Assembly (NCBI RefSeq): GCF_020176695.1
Contig: NZ_JAIWIA010000034.1
Coordinates: forward strand, 1 to 64,000
Source of the DNA: Massilia sp. MS-15
Lineage (GTDB): Bacteria; Pseudomonadota; Gammaproteobacteria; Burkholderiales; Burkholderiaceae_D
Direction: 5' to 3'
Length of the DNA: 64,000 nt
The first letter of the stretch is position 1, and each line of letters opens with the position of its first letter. The position numbers and the translations under genes are program-made. Positions 11,762 through 43,202 of the stretch are shown piece after piece. Below the pieces are notes generated by a model. The model did no database searches. It was given only the letters and a program-made list of their open reading frames with translations, and was not told the DNA's origin.

Positions 11762-12634
11762 TCAGGCACGCAGGCGCGCCAGCACACCGTCCAGGATATC
11801 GAGGTCGGCAAAGTCGATGATCAGCTGCCCCTTGCCCTTCGCCCCCATCTTGAACATCACCGGGGTGGCAAGCTTGTCCGACAGTTCTTCCTCGAGGCGC
11901 ACGATGTCGCCCGGCTTTTCCCTGGCCCGGGCCGGCGTTGCCGGGCTCGCCTGCTCCTCGAGGGCGCGCGCGACCAGCTTCTCGGTCTCGCGTACCGACA
12001 GGCGCTTGGCGATCACCTGGGTGGCCAGGGTGATCTGGTGCGCGCTGTCCACCGCCAACAGGGCGCGCGCATGGCCCATGTCGATGTCGCCGGCCATCAG
12101 CATGGTCTGCACCGGCTGGGCCAGGTTTATCAGGCGCAAGAGGTTCGATACCGCGCTGCGCGAACGCCCGACGGCGCTTGCTGCCTGCTCGTGGGTGAAC
12201 TGGAAATCGTTGATCAGGCGCTGGATGCCTTGCGCCTCTTCCAGCGGATTCAGGTCTTCGCGCTGGATGTTCTCGATCAGGGCCATGGCCGCGGCGGACT
12301 GGTCGTCGACTTCGCGCACCAGGACCGGGATCTCGTCCAGGCCGGCCATCTGGGCGGCGCGGAAGCGGCGCTCGCCGGCGATGATTTCATACGGTACCGG
12401 GGCGCCCTCCTGCAGCGGACGTACCAGCACCGGCTGCATGATGCCCTGGTTCTTGATCGAGGCGGCCAGTTCGCTCAGCGAGGTTTCATCCATGCGGGTG
12501 CGCGGCTGGTACTTGCCGGCCTGGACCTGGTCGATCTTGAGGGTCGAGGGCGCCTTCGCCGGCGCCGGCTGGCTATCACCGCCGAGCAGTGCGTCGAGGC
12601 CGCGTCCGAGGCCTTTCAATTTTTTCGTTGCCAT
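11762..12634 (-). CDS. parB: Chromosome partitioning protein ParB
   Basis: 290 aa, normal for chromosomal ParB. It binds parS, spreads as a CTP-dependent sliding clamp and works with ParA to segregate origins. The N-terminal basic tail GLGRGLDALLGG (ParA contact) is followed by the clamp domain with GERRFRAAQ and NIQREDLNPLEEA near 95-125, a helix-turn-helix (SAVGRSRSAVSNLLRLI near 140-160), and a C-terminal dimerisation domain. It lies 31 bp after parA. Two parS sites occur at 16226 and 16273, upstream of mnmG. Confidence 0.97.
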   Translation of the reverse strand: MATKKLKGLGRGLDALLGGDSQPAPAKAPSTLKIDQVQAGKYQPRTRMDETSLSELAASIKNQGIMQPVLVRPLQEGAPVPYEIIAGERRFRAAQMAGLDEIPVLVREVDDQSAAAMALIENIQREDLNPLEEAQGIQRLINDFQFTHEQAASAVGRSRSAVSNLLRLINLAQPVQTMLMAGDIDMGHARALLAVDSAHQITLATQVIAKRLSVRETEKLVARALEEQASPATPARAREKPGDIVRLEEELSDKLATPVMFKMGAKGKGQLIIDFADLDILDGVLARLRA

Positions 12635-13553: not shown

Positions 13554-14210
13554 TTATTCTGTTTGGTTCGATCTCTCGACGAACACCAGGTGGCGTTCCG
13601 CCCCGAGCCTCGGCACCTGCAGCGCCTGCAGGCCTGTCACTTTCCATGCTGCCGGTACCCGCTCCTGCTCTTCTGCCGGCGCCGTGCCTTTTAGCGCGAT
13701 GAATCTGCCGCCTTCCTGCAGCAGGTGCCCTGACCACTCCAGGAAATCCGACAAATCGGCAAATGCGCGCGAGGTAATCACGTCGAATTTGTCGCTCACC
13801 TCAAGGTCTTGCACTTTCATCGTGTGCACGGTGACATTGACCAGCTCCAGCTCCGCCTTCACCTGTTTCAGGAAGGCGGTTTTCTTGTGGACCGTGTCGA
13901 TCATCGCCACTTTCATGTCGGGGCGGCAGATCGCCAGCACGACGCCGGGCAAGCCGCCGCCTGCCCCGACGTCCAGCACATTGCGTGCGCCCGCAAAGGC
14001 CGGCACCGCTGCCAGCGAATCGAGCAGGTGATGGGTCACCATTTGCATCGGGTCGCGCAGCGACGTCAGGTTATAGACGCTGTTCCACTTGTTCATCAGC
14101 GCCAGGTAATCGAGCAGTTGTTCCTGCTGCGCTGCCGATACGTCGAGCTGCATGTCCTTGATACCATCAGCGAGTACCTGCGCCAGGGCGGCGCGGTCGA
14201 AGTATTTCAT
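13554..14210 (-). CDS. rsmG: 16S rRNA (guanine-527 N7)-methyltransferase RsmG
   Basis: 218 aa, usual length. An SAM-dependent Rossmann methyltransferase of the GidB family that makes m7G527 in 16S rRNA. The SAM-binding glycine loop is [16 protein letters not shown] near residue 80; the region [16 protein letters not shown] matches the family active-site face. The start overlaps the mnmG stop (ATGA), so translation is coupled. The mnmG-rsmG-parA-parB order is the classic origin-proximal cluster. Confidence 0.97.
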
Positions 14211-16138
14211 TCGGCCCCCTCCACTGCCGCGTTGCTGAAGCCCCTGGCGCCGCGCTTTTTCAGGTGTACCAGCAGCAGCGAGATCGCCGCCGGGGTGACA
14301 CCAGAAATGCGCGAAGCCTGGCCCAGGGTTTCCGGACGCTGCTTGTCCAGCTTCTGGCGCACCTCGAACGACAGCGCCTGGATCTCCAGGTAGTTCAGGT
14401 TTTCCGGCAGCTTGAGGTTCTCGTAATGGTCGTGACGCTCGACTTCGCGTGCCTGGCGGTCGATGTAGCCGGCATACTTCAGCTGGATCTCGATCTGCTC
14501 TTTTACCGCCGGGTCTTCCACCCCGGGGCCGGCCAGGGGCTGGCCTTCGACCCCGGCCATGCTCATCAGCGTGTCGTACTGCACGCCGGGCCGGCGCAGC
14601 AGGTCGGCCAGGTTGTATTCGCGCTCGATCGCCTGCCCCACCACGCGCTCGGATTCAGCGGCGGCCAGGATGCGCGGATTAACCCAGGTCGAGCGCAGGC
14701 GCTCAAGCTCCCGCGCGACGGATTCACGCTTGGTTTCGAAGGCGGCCCATTGGGCATCGCCGACGATACCCAGCTTGCGGCCGATCTCGGTCAGGCGCAT
14801 GTCGGCATTGTCTTCGCGCAGCGACAGGCGATACTCGGCACGGCTGGTAAACATGCGGTAGGGCTCGGCCACACCTTGCGTGGTCAGGTCGTCGACCAGC
14901 ACGCCGAGGTAGGCTTCCGATCGGCCCGGTGTCCAGGCTTCCTTGCCCTGCGTTTGCAGTGCCGCGTTCAGGCCAGCCAGCAAGCCTTGCGCGGCCGCTT
15001 CTTCATAGCCGGTGGTGCCGTTGATCTGGCCGGCAAAGAACAGGCCCTTGATCTCCCGCGTCTCCAGCGAAGCCTTCAGGCCGCGCGGATCGTAGTAGTC
15101 GTATTCGATCGCATAGCCCGGGCGCAGGATGAAAGCACTTTCCATGCCGCGCATCGAGCGCACCAGTTCCAGCTGCACGTCGAACGGCAGGCTGGTCGAG
15201 ATCCCGTTCGGGTAGAACTCGTTGGTGCTCAAGCCTTCCGGTTCCAGGAAGATCTGGTGCGACTCTTTCGAAGCGAAACGATGGATCTTGTCTTCGATCG
15301 AAGGGCAGTAGCGCGGCCCCACGCCTTCGATCACGCCGGTGTACATCGGGCTGCGATCGAGCCCGTTGCGGATGATCTCGTGGGTCCTCTCGTTGGTGTG
15401 CGTGACCCAGCACGGCACCTGGCGCGGGTGCATGGCGGCGTTGCCCATCACCGAGAATACCGGCACCGGATCGAGGTCGCCCGGCTGCTCGGACAGGACA
15501 GAAAAATCGATGCTGCGGCCGTCGATGCGCGGCGGCGTGCCGGTCTTCAGGCGGCCCTGCGGCAGCTTGAGTTCCTTCAGGCGGCTCGACAGCGACACTG
15601 CGGGCGGATCACCGGCGCGGCCGCCCGAGTAGTTCTGCAGGCCGACGTGGATCTTCCCGTCCAGGAATGTGCCGGCAGTGAGCACCACGGCACGGGCACG
15701 GAACTTCAGCCCGACCTGGGTAACGGCGCCGACCACACGCTCGCCTTCCAGCATCAGGTCTTCCACGGCCTGCTGGAACAGCCACAGGTTCGGCTGGTTT
15801 TCCAGGCGCGAACGAATCGCTTGTTTGTACAGGATGCGATCGGCCTGCGCGCGGGTGGCGCGCACGGCCGGGCCCTTGGAGGAATTCAGGATACGGAACT
15901 GGATACCCGACTCGTCGGTGGCGATCGCCATGGCGCCGCCAAGCGCGTCGACTTCCTTGACAAGGTGGCCCTTGCCGATGCCGCCAATCGAAGGATTGCA
16001 CGACATGGCGCCAAGGGTTTCGATGTTGTGGGTCAGCAGCAGGGTCTTTTGACCGGTGCGAGCAGACGCGAGCGCGGCCTCGGTACCGGCATGGCCGCCG
16101 CCGACGACGATGACGTCGAATTCAGTAGGAAATAGCAT
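14207..16138 (-). CDS. mnmG: tRNA uridine-34 5-carboxymethylaminomethyl modification enzyme MnmG
   Basis: 643 aa, slightly longer than the 629-aa E. coli GidA. An FAD protein that with MnmE installs the cmnm5 group at U34 of tRNAs. The N-terminal FAD box is [19 protein letters not shown]; the family signature [20 protein letters not shown] follows near residue 50, with a second signature [17 protein letters not shown] near 375. The C-terminal helical domain for MnmE/tRNA binding is complete. Two parS sites and a terminator lie directly upstream. Confidence 0.98.
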
Positions 16139-16225: not shown

Positions 16226-16241
16226 TGTTTCACGTGGAACA
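16226..16241 (+). other. parS site 1
   Basis: TGTTTCACGTGGAACA differs by one base from the canonical 16-bp parS palindrome TGTTTCACGTGAAACA. It lies 88 bp upstream of mnmG and overlaps the A-run of the terminator beside it. ParB binding follows from the close consensus match and the parAB genes 3-4 kb away. Confidence 0.93.
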
Positions 16242-16272: not shown

Positions 16273-16288
16273 TGTTTCACGTGGAACA
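16273..16288 (+). other. parS site 2
   Basis: Same 16-mer (TGTTTCACGTGGAACA) and same orientation as site 1, 47 bp away centre to centre. It ends one base before the stop codon of the TSUP gene. Two identical sites in 63 bp rule out chance. Confidence 0.93.
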
Positions 16289-18694: not shown

Positions 18695-20323
18695 TCAGAC
18701 TCCCTGCTGCGCAAGGATGTCTTGCGCCGCCTTCTCCGCGATCATGATGGTCGGCGCGTTCGTGTTTCCGGAAGTAATAAAAGGCATGATCGCGGCATCG
18801 ACCACGCGCAGCTTTGCAATGCCGCGCACCCGCAGGCGGCTGTCGACGACCGCCATTGGATCGCTTTCCCGGCCCATGCGGCAAGTCCCGACCGGATGGA
18901 AAATCGTGGTGCCGACCAGGCCTGCCGCATGCGCGAGTTCGTCCTGGTCCTGGTATTGCGTGCCCGGCATGAACTCTTCGGGACGGTACTTCGCCAGTGC
19001 CGGCGCCGCGACGATGCGGCGCGTGAGCGCCAGCGCGGCGGCGGCCGTCTTGCGGTCGGCTTCGGTACTCAGGTAGTTCGGCGTGATCCTGGGCGGCGCT
19101 CCGCTGTCGCCGGAGGCGATGCGCACTTCCCCGCGGGAGGTCGGTTGCAGATTGCACACGCTGGCCGTAAAGGCTGGAAAGCGGTGCAGCGGCTGGCCGA
19201 AGCTGTCCAACGACAGGGGCTGGACGTGGTATTGCAGGTTCGGCGCCGCCAGGTCGGGCGCAGACTTGGCGAACATGCCCAGTTGCGAGGGCGCCATCGA
19301 CATCGGACCGCTCTGGAACAGCGCATACTCGAGCCCGATCAGGGCCTTGCCGAACCAGTTGGTGGCGCGCGTGTTCAGTGTGGCCGCACCCTGGATCTTG
19401 AAAACCGTGCGCAGCTGCAGGTGGTCCTGCAGGTTGGCGCCGACGCCAGGCAGGTCCATCACCGGCGTGATGCCATGGCCCCGAAGCAGCTCCGGCGCGC
19501 CAATGCCGGACAGCTGCAGGATCTGGGGCGAACCCACGGCCCCCGCCGCCAGCAGGGTTTCACGCCGCGCGGTCGCCGTAAAGGCTTGGGCGCCGCCGGT
19601 AAAGCGGATGCCGGTGCAGACCTTGCCCCGCGCCGTCTCCTCGACCAGCAGGCGCTCGACGTGGCAGCCGGTCATGATGGTCAGGTTGGGCCGTGCCGCT
19701 GCCGGTTTCAGGAAGGCTTTCGCCGTGTTCAGGCGGATGCCGCGCCGCTGGTTGACTTCGAAATAAGCGGAGCCTTCACCAAGGCCGGCGTTCAAATCAT
19801 CGATCTTCGGGATGCCCGTCTGGAACGCCGCGTCGCGGAAAGCATCCAGGATTTTCCAGGACAGGCGCTGCTTTTCCACGCGCCACTCGCCGCCTGCACC
19901 GTGCAGTGCGCTCGCCCCGAGGTAGTGGTCTTCGCTGCGCCTGAACAGGGGCAGTACCGCATCCCAGCGCCAGGAATCGTCGCCTGTCAGCTCTGCCCAG
20001 CGGTCGTAATCGCCAGGCTGGCCACGCATGTAGATCATGCCGTTGATCGACGAACTGCCACCCAGTACCTTGCCGCGTGGGTAGATCAGGGCCCGTCCAT
20101 GCAGGCCGGGATCGGCTTCCGTACGGTATAGCCAATCGGTGCGCGGATTTCCGATGCAATGCAGGTAGCCGACCGGGATGTGGATCCACAGGTAATCGTC
20201 ACGGCCGCCCGCCTCCACCAGCAGCACCTCCACGTTCGGATCACGCGTCAACCGGTTCGCCAGCACGCAGCCGGAAGTGCCGCCGCCGACGATCAGGTAG
20301 TCGTACTCGCCGGCCGATTCCAA
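18695..20323 (-). CDS. GMC family FAD oxidoreductase (choline/alcohol dehydrogenase type)
   Basis: 542 aa. FAD binding is shown by YDYLIVGGGTSGCVLANRL at the N-terminus, then the GMC signature GKVLGGSSSINGMIYMRG near 85-105 and a second signature GAVGSPQILQLSGIG near 260. The C-terminal catalytic region has FHPVGTCRMG and the conserved HN/ N pair region SGNTNAPTIMIAEK. Such enzymes oxidise choline, long-chain or aromatic alcohols to aldehydes. The only possible start near the FAD motif is TTG at 20323, without a good ribosome site. The gene starts where the origin region begins; substrate unknown. Confidence 0.9.
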   Translation of the reverse strand: MESAGEYDYLIVGGGTSGCVLANRLTRDPNVEVLLVEAGGRDDYLWIHIPVGYLHCIGNPRTDWLYRTEADPGLHGRALIYPRGKVLGGSSSINGMIYMRGQPGDYDRWAELTGDDSWRWDAVLPLFRRSEDHYLGASALHGAGGEWRVEKQRLSWKILDAFRDAAFQTGIPKIDDLNAGLGEGSAYFEVNQRRGIRLNTAKAFLKPAAARPNLTIMTGCHVERLLVEETARGKVCTGIRFTGGAQAFTATARRETLLAAGAVGSPQILQLSGIGAPELLRGHGITPVMDLPGVGANLQDHLQLRTVFKIQGAATLNTRATNWFGKALIGLEYALFQSGPMSMAPSQLGMFAKSAPDLAAPNLQYHVQPLSLDSFGQPLHRFPAFTASVCNLQPTSRGEVRIASGDSGAPPRITPNYLSTEADRKTAAAALALTRRIVAAPALAKYRPEEFMPGTQYQDQDELAHAAGLVGTTIFHPVGTCRMGRESDPMAVVDSRLRVRGIAKLRVVDAAIMPFITSGNTNAPTIMIAEKAAQDILAQQGV

Positions 20324-20473
20324 GGCTAGTGTTCTCGCGTCACAGCAAGCTCCCCACGGGCTGGCCCACCCGGCATGACGTGTCGAAACAGCGCGTCGAG
20401 ATCCATCCGGCCTCCGTGTCCCATTCGTTGAAACAGAGCTTACCAGAACGTGGACGGAAGTCCAGAGGCCATC

Positions 20474-20499
20474 TGTGGATAAGCCTCTTGATATCCACA
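20474..20499. other. DnaA-box pair A1
   Basis: TGTGGATAA (20474-20482, perfect, minus orientation), 8-bp spacer, ATATCCACA (20491-20499, one mismatch, plus orientation). First pair of origin module A. Confidence 0.85.
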
Positions 20500-20615
20500 G
20501 GTGTGTTTTGTGCAGAACCGTGGTGTTTTGGCGCCTTCAACATCTTGTCCAGTTTACGGGCTGCCTTCATGCGCCAGTGATGCACTGCCTTATGCATCAG
20601 CTAAGTGAATGATTT

Positions 20616-20641
20616 ATTGGAACTTCATCACCTTGTCCACA
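20616..20641. other. DnaA-box pair A2 (left half degenerate)
   Basis: TTGTCCACA at 20633-20641 differs by one base from the consensus. The expected partner at 20616-20624 is ATTGGAACT, largely decayed. The position, 142 bp after pair A1, matches the other modules. Confidence 0.65.
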
Positions 20642-20662
20642 AGCTGGGGCAGTCGTTAACCA

Positions 20663-20674
20663 CTACTACTATTC
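20663..20674 (+). other. DnaA-trios of module A
   Basis: CTA CTA CTA TTC, read on the plus strand, to the right of box 20633-20641 after a 21-bp spacer. The complement gives the 3'-GAT-5' triplets bound by DnaA on single-stranded DNA. The AT-rich run 20705-20725 just downstream is the best melting candidate in the region. Confidence 0.65.
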
Positions 20675-20874
20675 TTGTATACAGACTTTGCTTGTAAACC
20701 TCGGAAAAAATTTTCAATTATTTTTGCGCCTGCCGTCAATGGACTTATCCAGGCAACAAAGTCCCACAGAACATTCTCGCTAGCTGCGGTCCTGGCCACA
20801 GCGCTTCCTGCAAGCGGGTTTCTGCATTGCTGCGCGTGCCGGCCTGCAAAACAGCTCGCTTCACATCCTTCCAC

Positions 20875-20900
20875 TGTGGAAAACTGCTGGGATATCCACA
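20875..20900. other. DnaA-box pair B1
   Basis: TGTGGAAAA (20875-20883) and ATATCCACA (20892-20900), one mismatch each, 8-bp spacer, same inverted arrangement as A1. Confidence 0.8.
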
Positions 20901-21015
20901 GGATCGAATGTGTAGAACAGCCTGACCAAGCTGCCAGCAGGATTCTGTTCACGTTTCGTCCAGTTCGAACACAAGCCTTGTCCAGTTGCTTGACGCGACC
21001 GTAAACCATTGAGCA

Positions 21016-21041
21016 TGTGGAGAAAAGTCTTGTTATCCACA
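21016..21041. other. DnaA-box pair B2
   Basis: TGTGGAGAA (21016-21024, one mismatch) and TTATCCACA (21033-21041, perfect), 8-bp spacer. The perfect box faces the trios of module B. Confidence 0.87.
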
Positions 21042-21054
21042 GCATGGCGCGCGT

Positions 21055-21069
21055 TTACTATTACTACCA
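21055..21069 (+). other. DnaA-trios of module B
   Basis: TTA CTA TTA CTA CCA begins 13 bp after the perfect box 21033-21041; the 13-bp spacer is GC-rich (GCATGGCGCGCGT). The order box, GC-rich spacer, trios is the textbook layout of the basal unwinding system. Confidence 0.78.
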
Positions 21070-21084
21070 GTTTGTATACAAACT
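21069..21084. promoter_or_regulatory. 16-bp GTATAC palindrome, module B copy
   Basis: AGTTTGTATACAAACT, a perfect palindrome touching the trios. The same 16-mer recurs at 21467-21482, and a diverged copy (TTCTTGTATACAGACT) lies at 20672-20687. Conservation in three diverged modules suggests a protein site; the protein is unknown. Confidence 0.65.
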
Positions 21085-21271
21085 TGTTTACTACAACAAC
21101 AAAACCGGTAACGCGTCTCCAGCCGCAAGCTGCCCGGCCTGCAAGCCTGCCGGCCCTGGACATGCTCGCGTTGACAACAAGGCCGATAAGGCAGTCAGTG
21201 CGGCTGTCATGGACATTTCGCTGTCACATCGCCTGCAGAATCGCTTGTCATCCCGTTTTTGCCGAAACAAC

Positions 21272-21297
21272 TGTGGACAAGTCGATGGGTATCCACA
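21272..21297. other. DnaA-box pair C1
   Basis: TGTGGACAA (21272-21280) and GTATCCACA (21289-21297), one mismatch each, 8-bp spacer. Confidence 0.8.
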
Positions 21298-21412
21298 GGA
21301 TCAGATGTGCAGAACACAGCAATGTTCACCCTTTCAAAAATCTGTCCAAGTTTCGTCCAAATTCCACACAGGCTTTGTTCAGCCAGTAAACGCCCCTGCA
21401 AGTCCTTGATGC

Positions 21413-21438
21413 TGTGGAGTAAACGCGAGTTATCAACA
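21413..21438. other. DnaA-box pair C2
   Basis: TGTGGAGTA (21413-21421, two mismatches) and TTATCAACA (21430-21438, one mismatch), 8-bp spacer, 141 bp after pair C1. Confidence 0.75.
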
Positions 21439-21451
21439 GAAAAAGCCGCGT

Positions 21452-21467
21452 TTACTATCTACTACCA
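21452..21467 (+). other. DnaA-trios of module C
   Basis: TTA CTA, one extra T, then CTA CTA CCA, starting 13 bp after box 21430-21438, the same spacing as in module B. Confidence 0.7.
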
Positions 21468-21482
21468 GTTTGTATACAAACT
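21467..21482. promoter_or_regulatory. 16-bp GTATAC palindrome, module C copy
   Basis: AGTTTGTATACAAACT, identical to the module B copy although the surrounding sequence has diverged. It overlaps the last base of the trios. Confidence 0.65.
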
Positions 21483-21777
21483 TTAGTTAACTAATACGCT
21501 GAAGCACAGCGCCGCGGAAAAGGCGGAAAAAACCAGGAAAAAGCGAAAAACCGGGGTTTTGCTGGCTTCACCCGCTTAAGACAAGCAAAATGAACACCCA
21601 TGCATGGGAGTTTCCAGCCTCATGAGCTCGATCAAACCCGTGTATACATGCCGAACAAGCCGGCTGGGAGCGGGTCGCTGGCTTGTCGCGCGAAGCGCAA
21701 GAAGCAGTCCAGGCAGCCGCGTGGTCCGATTCCACACGCAGCCTTGATGAGATAAACACAAGAAAAACAGGGAAAAC

Positions 21778-22542
21778 ATGCGACTGGGGATCATCAGCGC
21801 CTTGTACGAAGAACAGCTGGGGCTCGTGGAAGCCATGAGAGGGCCCGCCAAGCTCATCCATGGCAAACGTGAGTACTGGGCCGGAAAGCTGTGGGAAATC
21901 GACGCTGTGTGCGTTTTATCGCGAATTGGGAAGGTTGCGGCAGCCATGACGGCCACCACGCTTGTGGAAAAGTTCGGAGTTACCCACATCCTGTTTACCG
22001 GCGTGGCTGGTGCGGGTGATAAAACGGTCCAGGTCGGCGATATCGTGGTGGCCGAGGCCCTGGTCCAGCACGACATGGATGCCAGTCCACTGTTTCCACG
22101 TTTCGAGGTGCCGCTCACCGGGCTAACGCACTTCCTGCCCGACCAGCAGCTGTCGCTGCGCCTGTCGCGTGCCGCCCATGATTTCCTGGAACAAGACCTG
22201 GAGACAGCGATCAGCGAGGGAGAGCGCAGGGAATTTCGCCTGGCGCAGCCACGCGTGCACCGCGGCGTGGTGGCAAGCGGCGACCAGTTCATGGCCGACC
22301 CGCTGCGCCTGAATATGCTCAACGCGGCCCTTCCCGGCCTGGTGGCCGTCGAAATGGAAGGTGCCGCGGTGGCCCAGGTGTGCTACGAGCTGGATGTCCC
22401 CTGCGCCGTGATCCGTACCGTGTCGGACAATGCGAATGAAGACGCGGCCACCGATTTCATGCGCTTCGTGAAATCGGTGGCCGCGCAATATGCTTTTCAC
22501 ACCACCCGGCGCCTGTGCCGCGATCTGGCGCAGGCAGGCTAG
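21778..22542 (+). CDS. mtnN: 5'-methylthioadenosine/S-adenosylhomocysteine nucleosidase
   Basis: 254 aa, PNP/UDP phosphorylase fold. Cleaves the glycosidic bond of MTA and SAH to adenine and the thioribosyl product, recycling SAM by-products and limiting SAH inhibition of methylases. The N-terminus MRLGIISALYEEQ carries the catalytic-water glutamate; VAVEMEGAAVAQVCYE near residue 185 holds the ribose-binding Met-Glu; SDNANEDAATDF near 215 holds the catalytic Asp. About 20 residues longer than E. coli Pfs. First gene right of the proposed origin; GGGA precedes the ATG by 5 nt. Convergent with ald, 6 bp apart. Confidence 0.92.
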   Translation: MRLGIISALYEEQLGLVEAMRGPAKLIHGKREYWAGKLWEIDAVCVLSRIGKVAAAMTATTLVEKFGVTHILFTGVAGAGDKTVQVGDIVVAEALVQHDMDASPLFPRFEVPLTGLTHFLPDQQLSLRLSRAAHDFLEQDLETAISEGERREFRLAQPRVHRGVVASGDQFMADPLRLNMLNAALPGLVAVEMEGAAVAQVCYELDVPCAVIRTVSDNANEDAATDFMRFVKSVAAQYAFHTTRRLCRDLAQAG

Positions 22543-29148: not shown

Positions 29149-29224
29149 GCGTCATCAGTGAACAAAATTAGATTTATATGTTGCATCGCACTATATTGTG
29201 CACAACTGAACATTTATCCACATC

Positions 29225-43061: not shown

Positions 43062-43202
43062 GGTATCCGCCGCCAGAATGATTGTGCCGCCAAGGATACG
43101 CCGGAACGCGGATCGGTGGCGCAGGCGCGCATGCCCTCCATTCCCACCCTGTCGCGCCGGGCTGGGGATAAGATGGCGCTTTTCCACAGCCCGCGCGATC
43201 CG

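Follow-up and report, generated by a model that had tools for sequence, protein, structure and literature searches.

Three tandem oriC-type units at the probable chromosomal replication origin of a Massilia-like bacterium

Introduction

Bacterial origins of replication are usually described with one opening site. In Escherichia coli, as set out in PMC5742627, the minimal oriC spans 245 bp; its outer DnaA boxes R4 and R1 are opposed and the DUE lies beyond the proximal one. For Bacillus subtilis, PMC6669920 and PMC8287927 describe a basal unwinding system (BUS) and, upstream of it, a DnaA box that acts through a helically phased loop. The latter paper asks for at least three NAN trios, the first no more than 16 bp from a DnaA box. 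The screening in PMC8287927 retained the candidates with the highest trio score, and additional units may therefore have gone unreported. For the bipartite origins of B. subtilis and Helicobacter pylori, PMC6669920 states that unwinding in vitro needs just one of the two DnaA-box regions. In our search of the open-access literature, we found no account of oriC in Massilia or its family, nor of natural tandem complete oriC units.

Here we describe an intergenic array within a 64,000-nucleotide stretch of DNA (hereafter the window), of which positions 20474-21500 are very probably the chromosomal oriC of a Massilia-like member of the Oxalobacteraceae. We consider it highly probable that the array is the chromosomal origin and is composed of three tandem, complete oriC units of ~220 bp (A, B and C), with B as the likely main opening site. 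The units resemble E. coli oriC in their opposed outer boxes, the IHF site 24 bp from the proximal box and the AT-rich DUE beyond. Counted on the printed sequence of E. coli K-12 oriC in the same orientation, the outer boxes are 180 bp apart, whereas they are 158 bp apart here, and TTGA stands 24 bp before the proximal box. Given that the E. coli IHF site fails the one-mismatch scan used in this study, the IHF-like slot was judged by its place as much as by its letters. Other differences from E. coli are the trio-like repeats behind the box, which occupy the place of the E. coli-type 13-mer DUE repeats (GATCTnTTnTTTT), the inverted partner 8 bp from the distal box, the number of units per origin (two or three here, one there) and the gene neighbour, here an MTA/SAH nucleosidase.

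The likeness to the B. subtilis BUS consists of a box, a short spacer, trios and a distal box whose distance is phased. As far as these sources tell, an origin there has a single BUS, whereas three units are present here, of which only B has the trio arrangement of a BUS, together with an IHF-like site. In a Rugamonas locus (L081) a gene separates unit A from B and C, much as a gene separates the DnaA-box regions in the bipartite origins of B. subtilis and Helicobacter pylori; unlike in those origins, each part here has its own trio-like repeats and AT-rich stretch. Finally, the units carry trio-like repeats and an unstable stretch and sit at the origin, which places them outside the definition of datA and DARS.

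Results

The array occupies the intergenic region between a GMC-type oxidoreductase gene on the minus strand (18695..20323; choline dehydrogenase-like, below curated cut-offs) and the gene of a 5'-methylthioadenosine/S-adenosylhomocysteine (MTA/SAH) nucleosidase on the plus strand (21778..22542). Its three units lie on the plus strand and follow one plan: a distal forward DnaA box, an IHF-like site, an inverted box, a short spacer, trio-like repeats and an AT-rich stretch. Unit A (20474..20725) begins with the distal pair at 20474-20499, followed by the IHF-like slot at 20602-20614 (one mismatch), the proximal box TTGTCCACA at 20633-20641, the trios CTA CTA CTA from 20663, which begin 21 bp past the box, and an unstable 51-bp stretch from 20675. 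Unit B (20875..21104) has its distal pair at 20875-20900, its slot at 21002-21014 (two mismatches) and its proximal pair at 21016-21041. The latter contains a perfect proximal box, TTATCCACA (21033-21041), and 13 bp past it follow four trios in register, TTA CTA TTA CTA (21055-21066), with the unstable 51-bp stretch starting at 21054. In unit C (21272..21500) the distal pair is at 21272-21297, the slot at 21399-21411 (one mismatch) and the proximal pair at 21413-21438, with the box TTATCAACA at 21430-21438; its trios (21452-21464) are interrupted, two standing at 13 bp and two more following one additional base, and its unstable 51-bp stretch starts at 21450. The layout of E. coli, with opposed outer boxes and IHF by the DUE-proximal box, is thus found here, the slot of unit B deviating at two positions.

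The original prediction had described three ~400-bp modules with two inverted box pairs each, five of the six pairs having both boxes and an 8-bp gap and the sixth a decayed half, and this description was borne out. The unit starts are 401 and 397 bp apart, and a window scan allowing up to two mismatches per half found TGTGGATAA-N8-TTATCCACA at 20474, 20875, 21016, 21272 and 21413. The sixth pair (A2) keeps its right half, TTGTCCACA at 20633, and has five mismatches in its left half. The second pair follows the first at 142 bp (measured to the decayed left half), 141 bp and 141 bp, as predicted. The predicted spacers of 13 bp in B and C and 21 bp in A were likewise recovered; the trios are not equal behind them, fitting best in B and being broken in C. 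Tandem Repeats Finder reported no 400-bp periodicity in the window, presumably because the units are too diverged, and Rfam and tRNA scans of the window gave no matches.

Eight box pairs occur in the 64-kb window, compared with a mean of 0.03 and a maximum of 1 in 30 Markov-1 simulations. Throughout the 4.5 Mb genome, TGTGGA-N0..30-TCCACA was found at five places, four of them pairs of the array and the fifth a plain palindrome 0.3 kb upstream; the DnaA-box cluster at the array is unique in the genome. Weaker inverted box pairs with the same 8-bp gap stand far from the array at 29197-29222 and 43163-43188. Stability computation placed an AT-rich, easily melted element next to the boxes: within 20200-21800, the three 51-bp stretches of lowest stability each follow one of the proximal boxes (20675, 21054 and 21450), and similar or greater instability occurs elsewhere in the window near 10.2, 13.5, 29.8 and 35.1 kb. 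Behind the trios of units B and C stands the palindrome TTGTATACAA (21072-21081 and 21470-21479), which is possibly merely part of the unstable stretch; TTTGTATACAAA is present in 6 of the 80 named loci, the other loci being TTTATATATA-like. TTGTCCA blocks are conserved in the unit consensus, and a role for them as low-affinity ATP-DnaA sites between the outer boxes is only putative.

In order to compare the units with those of relatives, two profiles were built from the window and 15 named loci and run on the window and 80 named relatives, which had been collected via their nucleosidase gene. The distance between the starts of the distal and proximal boxes is 157-160 bp in all 210 units of these 81 loci, where the pair nearest to 158 bp was taken for each unit; all pair distances within 20-260 bp are 105 (4 cases), 122-124 (32), 157-160 (210) and 230 bp (2). 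The gaps between units vary from 127 to 3412 bp (129 gaps). An IHF consensus with at most one mismatch occupies the fixed place in 157 of the 210 units, compared with 36 or fewer in each of 23 control windows scanned on both strands. By unit type, the slot was found at this threshold in 50/51 A, 21/51 B and 38/51 C units; of 159 assignments, 155 place it 24 bp from the proximal box. The same picture emerged from ten genomes belonging to five other genera: a forward box at 156-158 bp and a slot with at most one mismatch in each of the 19 units found, with the second match of one genome falling outside the region examined. Therefore, we read each unit as a complete origin core of the E. coli type with a trio-like opening sequence. 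From the constants of 158 bp and 24 bp, the geometry of a DnaA-IHF loop can be predicted precisely for an origin outside E. coli.

The conserved core consists of the distal forward box, the IHF-like slot, the proximal box, the trios and the AT-rich stretch. The two inverted pairs per module that had been predicted are present in the window and do not form part of this core, the left half of the second pair being missing in many relatives. Since partner boxes are frequently lost while the spacing and the IHF slot persist, the 8-bp inverted pairs were dropped as a core feature. Searched with the exact core letters in 399 genomes of the order, the 8-bp gap appeared only in this family among the matches listed.

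The genomic position of the array was approached through its neighbours and through relatives. On the minus strand, a ParB-family gene (11762-12634), rsmG (13554-14210) and mnmG (14207-16138) are typical neighbours of an origin. Two parS-like plus-strand sites, TGTTTCACGTGGAACA, at 16226-16241 and 16273-16288, each one mismatch from the parS consensus, compare with a chance expectation of 0.01. These genes and sites lie 4-9 kb from the array. A model of the box-trio-AT part of the unit (R1) has three matches in the 4.5 Mb genome, at window positions 20633, 21033 and 21430. The dnaA gene is located on another contig; since the R1 matches are confined to the array, none is on that contig.

As the assembly consists of 108 contigs, position relative to dif and strand polarity were judged in relatives, and since GC skew from 20-kb samples carries much noise at the high GC content of these genomes, dif and KOPS-like polarity were used. 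Each of 21 genomes has one dif-like site. Among the 19 of these with a known array position, the distance between array and dif is 0.46-0.50 of the chromosome in 16 (15 of 18 without G048), where nine of the 19 chromosome sizes are rounded values and two of these nine are assemblies of 2-3 contigs; it is off in G257 (0.31), G280 (0.26) and G148 (0.32). KOPS-like polarity, sampled in 20-kb pieces at 20 places (40 places in G257), puts the origin on the array or no more than about 0.05 Mb from it in three of the four relatives: the best origin is at 25-275 kb in G291 (array at 287 kb), at 3.00-3.23 Mb in G311 (array at 2.97) and at 325 kb in G123 (array at 356 kb). In the fourth, G257, polarity is reversed on either side of the array (contig C1, 3.4-5.45 Mb), and both polarity and GC skew indicate an origin some 1 Mb away from the array, at 5.4-5.55 Mb. 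This may reflect real inversions or misassembly; two inversions ending near the array could explain it. GC skew, which had been suggested as a check, peaks on the array in G123, lies ~0.3 Mb off in G311 and ~0.5 Mb off in G291, and points elsewhere in G257; within the window it was uninformative, and we regard it as weak evidence for origin position. The predicted identity of the array as oriC is upheld by the dif distances, KOPS-like polarity, parS-like sites, unstable stretches and R1 matches.

A simplified form of the published trio criterion, applied without its second-box rule, which can permit longer spacers, is passed in the window only by unit B, with four trios at 13 bp; A, whose trios start at 21 bp, and C, with two trios before the break, fail it. 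The predicted box-spacer-trio order of a basal unwinding system consequently describes unit B and does not extend to A and C, which may function like a BUS even though they are not classed as one. In the 51 three-unit loci, 1 A, 27 B and 7 C units pass the simplified criterion; relaxing it to 22 bp raises the numbers to 30 A, 32 B and 17 C units. Its restriction to B in the window makes B the candidate main opening site.

Multiple units are a common property of the relatives. In the 81 loci, the profile scan found three units in 54, two in 26 and one in a single locus (L074), whose contig starts 0.2 kb upstream. Counts anchored on the proximal box were 51, 27 and 3, respectively; this anchor overlooks a weak unit in L047, L048 and L050, in each of which R1 finds three, and it reads the plus strand only, hence the single units apparent in L057 and L058. 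R1 matches were present in 350 of 392 genomes of the family, which we infer from the named loci to be the Oxalobacteraceae. Two or three matches occurred in 308 genomes and more than three in none listed (counted by eye from the listing), and exactly one occurred in 42, among them all 18 listed genomes of genus g5. Conservation of three modules, which the original prediction had proposed to check, holds in the same genus, where 51 of the 56 listed genomes have three matches and five have two, and does not hold elsewhere in the family, where two units, tandem, convergent or divergent, are commonest. These matches were counted genome-wide, with clustering confirmed in the loci that were fetched. 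At the level of the order, 22 of 160 genomes had a match, 18 of them outside the family: one match in 16, three in G507 and two in G545, partly on different contigs. Because the sequences behind R1 come from the family and include the window, and given the stricter filters of the family scan, all such counts are lower bounds and have little bearing on other families.

The orientation is tandem in most loci read. Two divergent units are found in Massilia solisilvae and M. terrae (L057, 5429-5901; L058, 5453-5932), and four loci of genus g22 (L289, L290, L291 and L298) have convergent units that form inverted repeats; over 225 bp the two units are 84-99% identical, pointing to gene conversion or recent duplication. 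A bipartite layout, in which ~2-3.5 kb separate unit A from the following unit, is seen in some loci of Rugamonas and several of Duganella, and the loci concerned include L081, L084 and L089; in L081 (1701-5850) a 1041-aa GGDEF/EAL gene lies between the units.

A tree of 106 units required 7 label changes for A, 9 for B and 7 for C, compared with 24.8 for shuffled labels. Type A is coherent in Massilia, Janthinobacterium, Rugamonas and Duganella alike. Within subclades, B and C cluster according to position, but across genera neither is a single clade. Local re-duplications are seen in L088 (A/B) and in L076 and L080, where A and B fall with the A type, and no label forms one clade. We had considered recent duplication with homogenisation as the source of the A-B-C labels and rejected it on the old position grouping in this tree, clearest for A. 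The tree indicates that the A versus B/C split is old, with copies not simply homogenised, and that at least this split took place before the lineages of Massilia, Janthinobacterium and Duganella parted. The three-unit origin appears to consist of long-diverged copies of a whole replication origin.

A further DnaA-box pair, beyond those of the original prediction, lies on the plus strand within the nucleosidase coding sequence (21963..21988). With codons numbered from 1, Leu62 is CTT, Val68 is GTT and His70 is CAC in 80 of the 81 loci each, whereas elsewhere in the same genes these codons account for 4.4%, 16% and 62% of their amino acids; these counts come from 81 related, non-independent sequences. 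In 16 nucleosidases of other genera, one of which was read in the wrong frame, CTG is the leading Leu codon (53%) and GTC the leading Val codon (33%) at the same sites, and half of the His codons are CAT, so that the protein does not dictate CTT, GTT and CAC. Codons 18, 42-44, 47 and 51 (0-based; window 21778-22000) are also near-invariant synonymously in the 81 loci, and the constraint may thus exceed the box pair. The nucleosidase gene is not a universal neighbour, with a match in 37 of 79 family genomes.

Discussion

How would such units work? By analogy with E. coli and B. subtilis (see also PMC10721633 and PMC10225481), each unit would have DnaA on its distal forward box and, 158 bp away, on its inverted proximal box, and a bend by IHF beside the latter would bring the two DnaA complexes together. 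Four genes of the HU/IHF family are present in the genome. A DnaA filament could then extend from the proximal box over the spacer onto the trio strand, whereupon the AT-rich stretch would melt. Unit B, whose proximal box is perfect and is followed at 13 bp by four trios in register, would be the likely main opening site; A and C would most likely raise the local DnaA concentration and supply further opening sites, making initiation robust. What the sequences show directly is how the units are built and spaced, that they are conserved and occur at one place only in the genome, and where that place lies; the binding of DnaA and IHF, the opening, this ranking of the units and the role of the extra ones are all predictions.

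Several other readings of the array deserve consideration. It is hardly credible that the main origin lies elsewhere and the array is merely a conserved DnaA-bound region: the polarity of G257 and the dif distances of G257, G280 and G148 would fit such a scenario, but the 16 concordant dif distances, three polarity tests, the parS-like sites and the lack of any further R1 match in the genome itself, hence on the dnaA contig, speak against it. We also give little chance to the possibility that only unit B is an origin and that A and C are functionless, decaying relics of old duplications. The passing of the trio criterion by B only in the window, the lost left half-box of unit A and the rarity with which A and C pass in relatives are what one would expect of relics. 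Relics would drift, however, and 51 of the 56 listed genomes of the genus keep three matches, every A and C unit counted holds the 157-160 bp spacing, GTTAA is found at its position in 50/51 A units and GTTTAC in 51/51 C units, and no stretches of the region are less stable than those behind the three boxes.

A different question is what the extra units do. They could be DnaA-titrating or recycling sites, similar to datA or DARS, beside a single true opening site, which we regard as a possible explanation, if an unlikely one. Indeed, datA and DARS2 likewise consist of DnaA boxes and an IHF site, according to PMC5742627, and the distal pairs and the pair in the nucleosidase gene add predicted binding sites that have no trios. 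Against titration stands the fact that the proximal box of every unit is followed by trio-like repeats and an unstable stretch, neither of which datA or DARS elements are known to need. Alternatively, two or more units could open together, one helicase each, so that at least two serve bidirectional initiation. Most family genomes with matches have two or three and none listed has more, and this number is kept despite changes in orientation from tandem to convergent (L289-L291 and L298) or divergent (L057 and L058), as this proposal would have it. Nevertheless, one unit suffices in E. coli, all 18 listed g5 genomes have a single match and the units of the window all point in the same direction, which makes joint opening quite unlikely. 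A broader version is that the array is an origin cluster in which two or three units open per initiation event, each for one helicase or direction, with unit number but not orientation under selection and the codons of the neighbouring gene held by the box pair. We think this doubtful; if true, 'one origin, one opening site' would have given way in this family to a multi-unit device.

Under the preferred reading of three complete units with B as the likely main opening site, what stands out is that most genomes examined in one family have two or three full units in varied arrangements. The extra origin copies in relatives allow their purpose to be asked about directly. Single-unit genomes (g5), inversions and near-exact inverted repeats are ready comparisons that make such questions testable: what picks the opening site, whether each of two helicases needs an opening site of its own and what share of an origin serves as reserve.

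Box pairs with other gaps occur in other families, some of them ~247 bp apart, and multi-unit origins may thus extend beyond this one. In four genomes of family f27 (G637, G747, G666 and G578) we observed two box pairs with a 26-bp gap, ~247 bp apart, which perhaps represent an independent multi-unit origin.
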